Shown here: positions 12,609 through 15,600 of the stretch, piece after piece
Layout: the number at the start of each line of letters is the position of its first letter
Position numbering within the stretch: the first letter of the stretch is position 1
IMG/VR virus record: IMGVR_UViG_3300006737_000229
Location: 1 to 23,281 of that record
DNA: 23,281 bases
From: a virus
Reading direction: 5' to 3' (one strand)
Made by a program: the position numbers and the translations under genes
The notes under the pieces: generated by a model
What the model was told of the DNA's origin: nothing
Database searches by the model: none
The model's input: the letters and a program-made list of their open reading frames with translations, nothing else

Positions 12609-15600
12609 TCAATATGAGTCGACGTTTTCTTCCAAATCGGTAGACTGCCGCTCATTTTTGTCTTTCAGACGCTTGCGACGCGCTTCAGGGTATTCTTCCT
12701 CGGGGTCCTCAGTAGGACGCTCCTTCATGTCCCAGTCAGGTAGCGACTCTTCGGAAGTCAAGCGAGTGGGTCCACGAGGCGACTCAACCTGACTCCCTGC
12801 GTCAAACGAGAAACCACGGGCACCGGGACCACCACTCATGCGCTCTTTTTCGATGCGGTCCATCAAGTCGGCAATTCGCACCAGCGTCTTAGCCATCACT
12901 TCGACCTTCTTTGGCTTGAGGATGACTTCTTCATCGTCTTCCTCAATGATACCTCCAGACTCATTGGCCGATTGCCGTTGATTTTTGGGGTCAGTCATGC
13001 TACGCACCTTCTCCGTTCCCTTTGAGATGAGAGCCGCTGCTTCCATCCACAGAGGTCGTAGGCTTTCCGCAAGGCGCATGGCGTAGTCGCTCTTTTGCAC
13101 AGCGCCAAGTGCCGCGCGACCCTCAATGGCCCACGCACCATGTTGCGATTTCTCCAAGCGATACGTGATGCTGTCTACCTCAGAGATGTCCAGTGTCAAA
13201 CGCTCGCTGCCGATGGTGACGTCGAAGGGCATAGCGATGATGGCATGGGACTTGGTCAGGAGACTGAGCGTTTCCAACGAGGCGGGGGATTCGTCCTCAC
13301 TCGTGCCCTTCACACTGGAGACGGTGACGTCGTAGGTCTTGTTGTCACGCTTGACGCGGACGCCGGACACGCGGACTTGAATGACGTCACCCTCGTTGAA
13401 TGGCTTGGGACTGCGCACCGTGCCAACATCGACGTAGTGCTTACCCTCGTGTTCAACCACGCGCTTCCCGCTGTCTTCGGCATCGACAGGACCAGCACCG
13501 AGACGATAGACGAACGGTCCCTTCCCGCGAACGTCGAGCACCATGAAGGACAAGACCTTGTCTTTGCGTAGCATGAACCACTTTGGATGCCGTTGCTCTC
13601 CCTTCATGTAAGTCGAAGTCGCATCGCGGAGCATCAGGTAGTCGTGGTCAGGTGACAACGCCTCGACCACGGCCTCAAGTCCTTCACGGTCAGTCATGCG
13701 GAAGTTGTGCGGGCCGGGGACAATGACGTGTTCATGGCTGTCAAATTGAGCGCGCAGGAGTTTGATACGCTCACGCAGCAACATGTCCGACACGTTGTTG
13801 TCGTCATAGGACAGCAAGTCATAGACGACGAACTCTTTCTTTGCCCTTACGACGTCAATCACGTAGTCACTCTCGGTCAAGGCCTTGAACTGCTTGACGT
13901 CAGCAGGCTTGAGTTTTACATCTTCTCCGCCCTCATCATACGCCGTGACATCGTCACCTTCGCGCTTGACAATAAGGCGCTCACCGCGAGGCAAACCCGA
14001 AACAGCCCAGTCATCGCTAAAGCCACGCAGCGAATCGAGGTCACGTAGCGCGAAGATGCGATGCATCGCCAGCACAGGCGGTGGACGGCTTTCATCACTC
14101 TTCAGCAGGGCTTGAGGGTCAAGAAGCACCATCAGTGTCTCGACGGGGTCACTGGTGTGAATGCGGTCATAGCCGTCGTCTACGGGCGCGGTGCCTGTGA
14201 ACGGGTCGACAGAGAAGTGCTGGGCTTGTCGCTGGACGTATGGGAAGCCGTTGTTGAGAGCCGTCTCGGTCATCTCGGCTCCAGTTACCATCGCCATCTG
14301 CTCTTTGCTGGGAAGGATGCGGCGAACGTCACCCACGATGTTGGTGCCAACAGCCGGCTCTCGCCCCCTCCCTACAGAAAAACCGATGGACGGAGGAGCA
14401 ATGACAACACCTCGGTCCATCAGACCACCCGTGTAATGAGTGTTGATGACGCCTTGCGAATCAGGATGCACAGGGCCAATTGGGACTTCTTGCCACTCAG
14501 AGTGCTTTACATCACCCATGGTGGCTTTCTTGGCTCCCTGCATGACAGCCGGGTCAAAGCCGGGGTGGCCCGGTGAGAACATCAACACACCGTGCATGGC
14601 GTTTTCAATCTCATGCTGCGCCAACGCAATTCCCGTTTTGTCCGTGCCTTGAAACGTCCGGTCAAGCGGGACCATCATGAGTCCGTGCTGCTCCGCTTCC
14701 TGTTTGCGGTCATCACCAAACAAACCAAGTTGCCGATGCTCAGTGAAATATCGAGGGATGTTGCGAGCAGCACCCTTTGCCCAAGCATCTGCCTGACGTC
14801 GCGCTCGCTTATACGCTGTCTCCCCGACATCTTTCTTCAACGGGATGAGGCTACGGTAGTGTGCCTTGCTGGCTGCCCAGTGGTCAACAGGGCCTTCAGC
14901 GTCAGGAGTTTCCATGTCGTAGGGGGCAGGAATGGTTTGGATGCCCCGACTTGTCTGCACCTTTGGTGAAATACCCTGTCGAAGTGCCTCACCAACGGTC
15001 ATGATGACGGCGTTTTCAGTGTGGCCCTCCAACTGCTCTTTGATGCGCTCAGCCATTTCGATATGAGTTTGGTCGCGCTGGTCCTCGGGAATCCGAAGCA
15101 CGTCGAGAATACGGTCGTTTGAGGAGTTCATGTTGATACGCATGTCTTTGTTCACGAGATTCAATCCGTGAGCCAACACCTTTGCGGGCGAAGAGGAGAG
15201 GTCGCCACCAATCTCTTCTTCAAGCGAAGCACCCGGTCTTTTTCCGATTGCGTAGCCCCACGTCCTAAGTCCATGTTGTTCACCTCCGTTCATGAGAAGG
15301 TCCTTCTCAGCAGCGTGAAACAACTGAACGACGTTAGGGATGAACTGTGGGCTGTCCGGCTTGAAGTGCTCAGGATGCGTCTTGAGTGCAGACTGAAACA
15401 TCTGACGAGCGCGGGACGTCACAGCAGTCATGTCCATGTCGAACTTCTTGTTCACATGCGCGCGTCTGCTGAAGTCATCTTTCGACGGGTCAAACTCGCT
15501 TTCACCGACCTGCTCATAGGACTCCATCATCTCATCGAACTCACGATGGGCGTCAACGATTCCGCTGGAGTCGTAGATTTCACGGAAGCGACGCATCATG

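Follow-up and report, generated by a model that had tools for sequence, protein, structure and literature searches.

What is a DNA ligase domain doing inside a structural protein of a tailed virus, and can it still work? The question is raised by IMG/VR virus record IMGVR_UViG_3300006737_000229, of which we analyzed the DNA at positions 1-23,281 (the window, 23,281 nucleotides in length). The minus-strand genes of the window form a tailed-virus head and tail module with a portal protein, three small open reading frames (ORFs), a 1,933-aa protein (the giant), a prohead protease, an HK97-type major capsid protein (MCP) and a tape-measure-like protein. An earlier note on this DNA had proposed that positions 13311-14039, giant residues 1458-1700, are an inactivated ATP-dependent DNA ligase domain in a protein encoded between portal and protease. 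Our results support that proposal, place the better limits of the domain at about residues 1445-1720 (nt 13251-14078), and suggest that it may serve as a non-catalytic part of a protein destined for the virus head. The giant and its module are as follows.

12609..18410, minus strand: giant head-module protein, 1933 aa, GTG start (ORF call).
13251..14078, minus strand: inactive ATP-dependent DNA ligase module (nucleotidyltransferase and OB fold), residues about 1445-1720 (profile, structure, alignment).
13281..13562, minus strand: OB-fold segment, residues about 1617-1710 (model and structure comparison).

The ligase identity of the module was assessed by profile and structure comparisons. The Pfam family PF01068 (DNA_ligase_A_M) matched the whole giant with 25.5 bits (E 1.2e-5), slightly below its cut-off of 26.2, and exceeded the cut-off when a 317-aa stretch was searched (30.4 bits, E 3.7e-7); a six-frame search gave 28.9 bits (E 9.8e-9). 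The best sequence matches in the PDB were archaeal ligases, Thermococcus ligase 4eq5 being found at E 0.0094 with the single protein and at 1.9e-7 with a 16-row profile. WD-40 repeat proteins held ranks three to five in the profile search (best 9.4e-5) and were taken as chance matches, the top one being a sum of sub-threshold repeats. A profile built from intact viral ligases, which are described below, matched the giants at E 1e-47.

A model of residues 1151-1933, built from a 30-row alignment, had a low overall pLDDT of 59.5; most ten-residue blocks of the ligase region reached 65-91, with blocks of 40 and 50-61 inside it or at its end. Foldseek returned 126 matches to this model at E <= 0.001 (best E 2.7e-13), and the 50 listed were all DNA ligases or repair or end-joining complexes containing one. 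The same was true of the 50 matches listed by VIA-align, which superposed model residues 299-578 (giant residues 1449-1728) on Pyrococcus ligase 2cfm with Z 18.8 and a root-mean-square deviation of 5.2 over 261 aligned residues, and matched Thermococcus 4EQ5 with Z 17.6. The window module thus has the nucleotidyltransferase part, the OB fold and the family profile of a ligase, and by profile, predicted structure and tree, residues about 1445-1720 are a true ATP-dependent DNA-ligase core. The N-terminal DNA-binding domain of ligases was absent from the Pfam matches of the giant.

The catalytic motifs of this core are degenerate. In the window they lie at these positions.

13977..14000, minus strand: degenerate motif I, residues 1471-1478 (SGLPRGER), Lys replaced by Leu (alignment).
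13848..13856, minus strand: degenerate motif III, residues 1519-1521 (DVV), Glu lost (alignment).
13812..13832, minus strand: motif IIIa, residues 1527-1533 (FVVYDLL) (Pfam and alignment).
13623..13643, minus strand: degenerate motif IV, residues 1590-1596 (DYLMLRD) (alignment).
13563..13580, minus strand: degenerate motif V, residues 1611-1616 (WFMLRK) (alignment).

Relatives were collected by scans of viral contigs, which gave 7 loci first, then the best 80 of 265 and the best 80 of 188 relatives, and further the best 80 of 231 (polymerase), of 163 (intact ligase) and of 104 (giant N-terminal part). The 228 giant loci, in which many contigs were cut repeatedly, yielded 100 distinct modules. 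The deepest group of giants, 18 loci with 14 distinct modules, fell below the length filter of that set and was added as a second one, which brings the motif counts to 114 modules. For comparison we used 31 rows of intact viral ligases and 10 of cellular ligases; the latter were chosen by the K-x-D-G pattern, so that their motif I lysine is present by construction. L381 was excluded from the cellular rows, and L371 and L369 were also left out of the rows.

The motif I lysine, the Glu of motif III and the first lysine of motif V were absent from all 114 giant modules and present in all 31 intact viral rows, and the motif III Glu was found in 10 of 10 cellular ligases as well. At position 1473 the 100-module set has W (55), Y (14), L (14), F (12), M (4) and I (1), and the deep set has H (10) and Q (4); smaller sets likewise held no lysine there (0/94 and 0/103). 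The substitutions L1473 for the Lys and R1475 for the Asp of K-x-D-G, and M1613 for the first motif V lysine, which had been read from the letters of the window, were confirmed by the alignment. The motif IV substitution had been placed at R1596; that residue is an Asp and the one in question is R1595. The lysine is indeed replaced there, although conservatively (R in 110 modules and K in 4). Changes that had escaped the first reading include V1521 in motif III and D1590-Y1591 at the E-G pair of motif IV, where Glu is kept in 17 and Gly in 1 of the 114 modules. The spacing between motifs III and IIIa was also new: the distance from the motif III Glu position to the motif IIIa Asp is 9 residues in 114/114 giants, compared with 33-36 in the 31 intact viral ligases and 40-41 in the 10 cellular ones, and about 25 residues that the intact viral ligases carry between these motifs are missing from the giants. 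The second position of motif V (1615) holds R in 93 modules, A in 14, K in 3, Q in 3 and S in 1. Judged by these residues, the window module is an inactive pseudo-ligase whose adenylation chemistry is gone.

Intact homologues of the module were found in sister viruses. This family was traced from one strong ligase (E 1.7e-31) among 50 PolB-bearing contigs, drawn from the 80 of the polymerase scan, and the best 80 of its 163 relatives were kept. All 80 contigs (81 rows, one contig having been cut twice) carry K[YF]DG, W[VI]KWK and EGV[VL]IK, and the ligase is 838-887 aa long in the 56 that were parsed (loci L281-L362). In four intact loci that were printed, the portal is followed by other genes, the ligase, the protease directly behind it and the MCP, and their proteins are 47-49% (portal), 49-55% (protease) and 37-38% (MCP) identical to those of the window. 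Sister viruses apparently keep a working ligase where the window has its giant, immediately ahead of the prohead protease, which we present as new. Had such homologues revealed that the alignment was shifted, the earlier proposal would have fallen; instead they align in the same register (WVVQEKYDGMR in intact relatives, WVVSKWYDGKR and WAVSGLPRGER in giants), which confirms the loss in the giants.

The homology between giants and intact ligases is confined to the ligase module, and the two share a P-x-M-x-R-I-F motif upstream of motif I. The N-terminal region of the giant had no convincing match in the intact-ligase loci. Weak segments of a giant profile inside intact ligase ORFs were discarded (single-segment E > 1 in the ten rows printed). 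A fusion with a known neighbor was also rejected as the origin of the giant, since no match to it was seen in the 670-aa protein encoded between the portal and ligase genes of L281 and related loci.

The history of the module was inferred from trees. One tree was computed from 81 modules, 40 of them from giants, 31 from intact viral ligases and 10 from cellular ones, with IQ-TREE in quick mode and SH-aLRT as the only support measure. The 40 giants formed one clade in it, with support 100 on a stem of 1.71, and all viral modules stood apart from the cellular ones. FastTree with 101 and 115 giant rows again gave one giant clade with support 100. The programs warn of long branches, and the intact forms may be a sister group or paraphyletic. 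On these trees, incorporation into the giant and loss of catalysis map to a single occurrence. The earlier note had spoken of a ligase captured and repurposed. A fresh capture is probably not what happened: the module probably descends from an intact ligase that an ancestral virus carried in this slot, and was absorbed later. The part of that claim which stands is that a ligase became part of the giant and was inactivated.

The dead module is not decaying. Among 30 representatives, the mean majority share in 50-residue blocks was 0.59-0.81 over the five blocks of the ligase region, 0.17-0.57 before it and 0.45-0.70 after it. The dN/dS of the module, computable in 6 of 7 pairs, was 0.015, 0.023, 0.034, 0.052, 0.058 and 0.12 (the last near saturation), and in the five pairs with all parts the values of the N-terminal (0.059-0.195) and C-terminal (0.035-0.186) parts were both above those of the module. 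Constraint on the module is thus stronger than on most of the giant, and the catalytic loss is old, clade-wide and under purifying selection.

Related loci held 132 full-length ORFs of the giant type including that of the window (contigs cut twice being counted twice), from which 40 representatives were taken. A scan with the giant N-terminal part gave 75 new loci, and 72 of them contain the ligase module, which shares the frame of the N-terminal part in 71; the remaining 3 have an ORF cut off by the end of the stretch. One locus (L421 1037-6543) has the giant as two ORFs of 1007 and 838 aa with the ligase module apart, which may reflect an assembly frameshift or a real split. No match to the module was found in a phage collection by tblastn at E <= 1, nor any locus in a first scan of genome contigs. 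Scanning the genome contigs with the intact family gave 7 loci, 5 of them in bacterial metagenome-assembled genomes and probably viral contamination. The intact-ligase virus contigs L363-L367 were binned with Maricaulis and Altibacter, probably as archaeal-virus contamination of the bins.

In 19 of 20 giant-bearing contigs (39-108 kb) the giant is the only PF01068 match; the twentieth (G011) has no match at E <= 0.001, its own giant scoring 0.0047. The NAD ligase family PF01653 was found in 0/20 of these contigs, which may be fragments, so that a missing match does not prove a missing ligase. Among the 50 PolB-bearing contigs, 25 have a PF01068 match, namely 24 giant-type frames (one cut short) and 1 intact ligase, and 25 have none, two of these exceeding 60 kb. 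PolB was found in 12/16 contigs, and giant-bearing contigs include several of 105-108 kb and two of 111 and 116 kb; the window is itself a 23 kb fragment. The polymerase itself differs in form: where found in giant-bearing contigs it is a single frame of about 800-865 aa, and in 11 of 15 intact-ligase contigs searched it is in two pieces, with frames of about 557-586 and 292-312 aa. A strict rule that an intact ligase goes with a split PolB was rejected, as 2 of the 15 contigs have one match and 2 have none, and G049 combines an intact ligase with a continuous 785-codon PolB match.

A short motif around the module may connect it to the neighboring protease. In the HK97 capsid protein, cleavage at K103/S104 is described in an excerpt of PMC10275583. 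The motif [LIVM]-x-K-[SAG] is conserved at MCP residue 37 (LLK/A, 55/57) and at the protease's own K15 (residue 15, 111/111). At the 50% level the protease has 11 K-motif columns, compared with 0-2 columns per protein for variants with R, E, D, Q, N, S or T. In the 40 giants, four K-motif columns reach 60% (other central residues, 0-2 columns), and two of them, 1437 and 1720, bracket the ligase module.

18357..18365, minus strand: predicted protease site after K18 (LLK/S), 25/40 representatives (motif columns).
14100..14108, minus strand: predicted protease site after K1437 (LLK/S), just before the ligase module, 27/40 (motif columns).
13251..13259, minus strand: predicted protease site after K1720 (LTK/S), just after the ligase module, 40/40 (motif columns).
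13020..13028, minus strand: predicted protease site after K1797 (ISK/G), 27/40 (motif columns).

Among 100 of 103 modules, the motif was present near the front edge in 67 and near the rear edge in 97 (shuffled expectation 0.12 and 0.15), a few front edges being imprecise. Intact ligases carry it in the linker before the ligase domain in 23/26 (shuffled 0.12) and behind it in 21/26 (shuffled 0.39). The small ORFs between portal and giant have it in 64/69, 57/65 and 61/63 cases. No conserved motif column was found in PolB (n=46) or in an HNH-type ORF (n=92); for two further control proteins, the tape measure protein (TMP) and that of ORF 53-1312, the pool contained no relatives. The haloarchaeal viruses HVTV-1 and HCTV-1 show an L-x-K motif excess in MCP and protease. 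The L-x-K-[S/A/G] motifs that bracket the module suggest a prohead cargo trimmed by the protease.

In the reading that we favor, with a probability of about 0.53, the module is a non-catalytic binding or docking part of a head-cargo protein that is cut by the maturation protease. A ligase was absorbed into a protein of ~1,900 residues and lost its adenylation chemistry, after which the module came under stronger constraint than most of the giant. The giant would enter the prohead, where the maturation protease would cut it at L-x-K/[S/A/G], thereby releasing or trimming the ligase-like module (about residues 1438-1720) within the head. The pocket, with its kept arginines, may bind a DNA 5'-phosphate, a DNA end or a nucleotide but leave it unchanged. 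R1478 is kept in 114/114 modules, R or K at 1595 in 114/114 and R or K at 1615 in 96/114, positions that presumably face phosphates in active ligases. A pure protein-binding role is at least as likely as the holding of phosphate, DNA or nucleotide.

Several observations weigh against the favored reading. The median net charge of the module is -4.5, compared with +1 in intact viral and +10 in sampled cellular ligases. The deepest giants (L408 8947-14325 and relatives) keep the nucleotidyltransferase part and, in two printed modules, are without the OB fold, motif V running directly into the C-terminal part. The acidic module and these OB-less giants speak against a simple DNA clamp. For the role that the earlier note had suggested, binding of a DNA end or nick, argue the kept R1478 and R/K1595 and the mostly kept R/K1615; we would give such binding a chance of about one in five. 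As for cleavage, the L-x-K motif is short and not sufficient: full conservation extends to protease residues 104 and 114, two positions within the protease domain that can hardly be cut, since cleavage there would ruin the enzyme. The MCP has one K column compared with one Q and two T columns, and the portal has one K column and likewise one each for R, D, Q and T. For two tail-module proteins the conserved K columns number 2 and 1, as many as for other residues. Over the 40 giants the motif occurs 280 times compared with 222.6 in shuffled sequences, site 1437 is conserved in only 27/40, and the intact ligases have no linker column at 60%, other patterns, such as [SAG]K.[LIVM] with 4 columns, doing better there. 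Finally, no virion proteomics was found for these uncultured viruses, so that cargo status and cleavage stay predictions.

The strongest alternative gives the module a structural or protein-docking role in head assembly and no nucleic-acid ligand, with the ligase fold preserved just as a stable scaffold. We regard this as a serious possibility, though a tentative one. It fits the acidic module and the deepest giants, in which the nucleotidyltransferase part is kept and the OB fold is missing from the two printed examples. In addition, H1450, W1468, K1550, R1553, M1602, E1605 and H1608 are invariant in 40/40 giants and different or variable in intact ligases, and these newly invariant residues suggest a new surface. 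The deep giants without OB fold, together with the protease columns that can hardly be cut, lower the cargo reading and raise this alternative. Against it stand the conserved arginine and lysine positions given above, which look as if an anion pocket were needed in most members; the deepest group has Ala at position 1615 in 14/14 modules.

An unlikely alternative takes the giant for a late-infection protein that stays out of the virion, its head-gene neighborhood being incidental and its L-x-K motifs due to chance or structure. The missing virion proteomics, the small motif excess over the giant and the conservation of the motif where cuts are hardly possible are compatible with it; however, the portal-protease slot is kept in both the giant and the intact groups, and conserved columns occur in giant, protease, MCP and three small ORFs and not in PolB or the HNH-type ORF. 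It is very improbable that the module still adenylates or ligates through a lysine one place off the canonical position. Many members do read S-K-W-Y-D-G, and the deepest ones H-K-D-G: a lysine stands at position 1472 in 57/100 modules and at 1474 in 10/14 deep ones, and Asp is kept at 1475 in 69/114. However, the shifted lysine is not conserved and is absent from the window, no module has the motif III Glu or the first lysine of motif V, the motif IV Gly is lost in 113/114, the residues between motifs III and IIIa are missing in all, and the register is fixed by the intact relatives. That the ligase resemblance is due to chance, to which the sub-cut-off whole-protein score and the weak PF01068 matches of several relatives might point, we count as already refuted by the intact-ligase profile (E 1e-47), the structure match (Z 18.8) and the genomic slot shared with intact ligases.

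The remaining features of the window that bear on the giant and its setting are the following.

14961..18407, minus strand: giant N-terminal part, residues 2-1150, mostly helical (predicted model).
11191..12564, minus strand: prohead serine protease (Peptidase_S78, 1.9e-9) (Pfam and PHROG searches).
9976..11163, minus strand: major capsid protein, HK97 type (PHROG search).
19970..21727, minus strand: portal protein (PHROG 18178, 1.8e-63) (profile searches).

Residues 2-1150, folded as one piece (pLDDT 73.6, pTM 0.69), had no counterpart in PDB or BFVD at E <= 0.001 by Foldseek, and no PHROG family matched the giant at E <= 0.1. RNA families and tRNAs were not found in the window. The portal has zinc-ribbon-like CxxC pairs N-terminally and a Gly-Met-Pro-Pro repeat near its C terminus. 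Directly upstream of it, a 437-aa ORF (21724-23037, minus strand) matches an HNH endonuclease PHROG with its C-terminal part (5e-11) and, weakly, a LAGLIDADG domain; each of the four printed loci with an intact ligase has a stretch resembling it ahead of the portal. Beside the giant, a small head-module ORF (18417-19235, minus strand) has repeated CPEC-type cysteine clusters, near-duplicate KMGCGAKMQKA units and a conserved L-x-K-A motif at residue 18. Among the nearest named relatives of MCP and portal, haloarchaeal (Haloarcula) viruses account for 8 of 11 matching records each, with identities of about 31% and 30%; the two that were examined belong to the Druskaviridae, a head-module kinship like that by which the Apasviridae are characterized.

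These relationships bear on the annotation of magroviruses. Aoguangviridae and Apasviridae are credited with an ATP-dependent DNA ligase (PMC10768690, PMC12999244), the profile of the latter being a ligase and a 108-kb genome (PMC12999244), and an excerpt of PMC12451623 equates Aoguangviridae with group B and Apasviridae with group A magroviruses. Almost all magrovirus vOTUs encode DNA ligase according to a portion of PMC10160649, and in a group A genome one read spans parts of the ATP-dependent DNA ligase gene and the prohead protease gene, as a passage of PMC7318539 states. Since the published ligase adjoins the prohead protease in group A, that annotation probably describes the dead module. 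The intact sister ligases probably include those of group B. A wider scenario is that these viruses package ligase in the capsid: the intact clade would free a working ligase in the prohead that travels with the genome and seals nicks or closes the genome on entry, and the window clade would have turned this cargo once into a non-catalytic DNA-end or nick cap or clamp, so that the published group A ligase would be dead cargo and host ligase would be needed. We consider this scenario doubtful as a whole.

Our results would probably correct published accounts in which nearly all magroviruses have an ATP-dependent DNA ligase as a replication gene: in the giant-bearing contigs searched, the one ligase-family match found is the dead module. 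They also offer a natural experiment in pseudo-enzyme evolution, with intact and dead copies in one slot and new invariant residues after the loss, and a testable claim that archaeal tailed viruses carry a ligase-fold head cargo processed at L-x-K/[S/A/G]. No report of an inactive ligase in a virion protein was found in the open-licence literature searched, a set that the original magrovirus paper lies outside.

Comparison with known systems places the giant among several partial counterparts. Snurportin-1 carries a cap-binding domain that is a non-catalytic relative of capping enzymes and serves as a eukaryotic nuclear import adaptor; one giant (L081) matches this domain (PF21974, 8.6e-5) better than the ligase family (0.14), but unlike the giant, snurportin-1 is not in a virion module. 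The zeta-toxin giant of Druskaviridae (HVTV-1 gp115, HCTV-1 gp109) is likewise very large, has an enzyme-named domain and lies between portal and protease in related head modules. However, it shows no L-x-K excess and no sequence similarity to the giant, which had none to head-region proteins of HVTV-1, HCTV-1, vir335 and vir519 (best E 0.038, to other proteins than gp115 and gp109). The head cargo or ejection proteins of SPN3US and T4 that are cut by prohead proteases resemble the giant in their recurrent candidate sites, one near the N terminus, and in their head-gene neighbors; cleavage in SPN3US was demonstrated by mass spectrometry, according to a portion of PMC10052503, whereas that of the giant is predicted. 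The predicted P1 residue of the giant is Lys, as at the HK97 site in the excerpt of PMC10275583.

The ligase of group A (Apasviridae) is reported as a replication enzyme, whereas the window module is non-catalytic. Like the archaeal ligases of Pyrococcus furiosus (2CFM) and Thermococcus (4EQ5), the module has nucleotidyltransferase and OB domains in the same order; unlike them, it is without the catalytic Lys, the motif III Glu, the motif IV Gly, the first motif V Lys and the residues between motifs III and IIIa, and it is part of a 1,933-aa head-module protein. A further counterpart is the intact sister ligase, a homologous domain in the same slot before protease and MCP (four loci), but one encoded by a separate gene and with its active-site residues intact.

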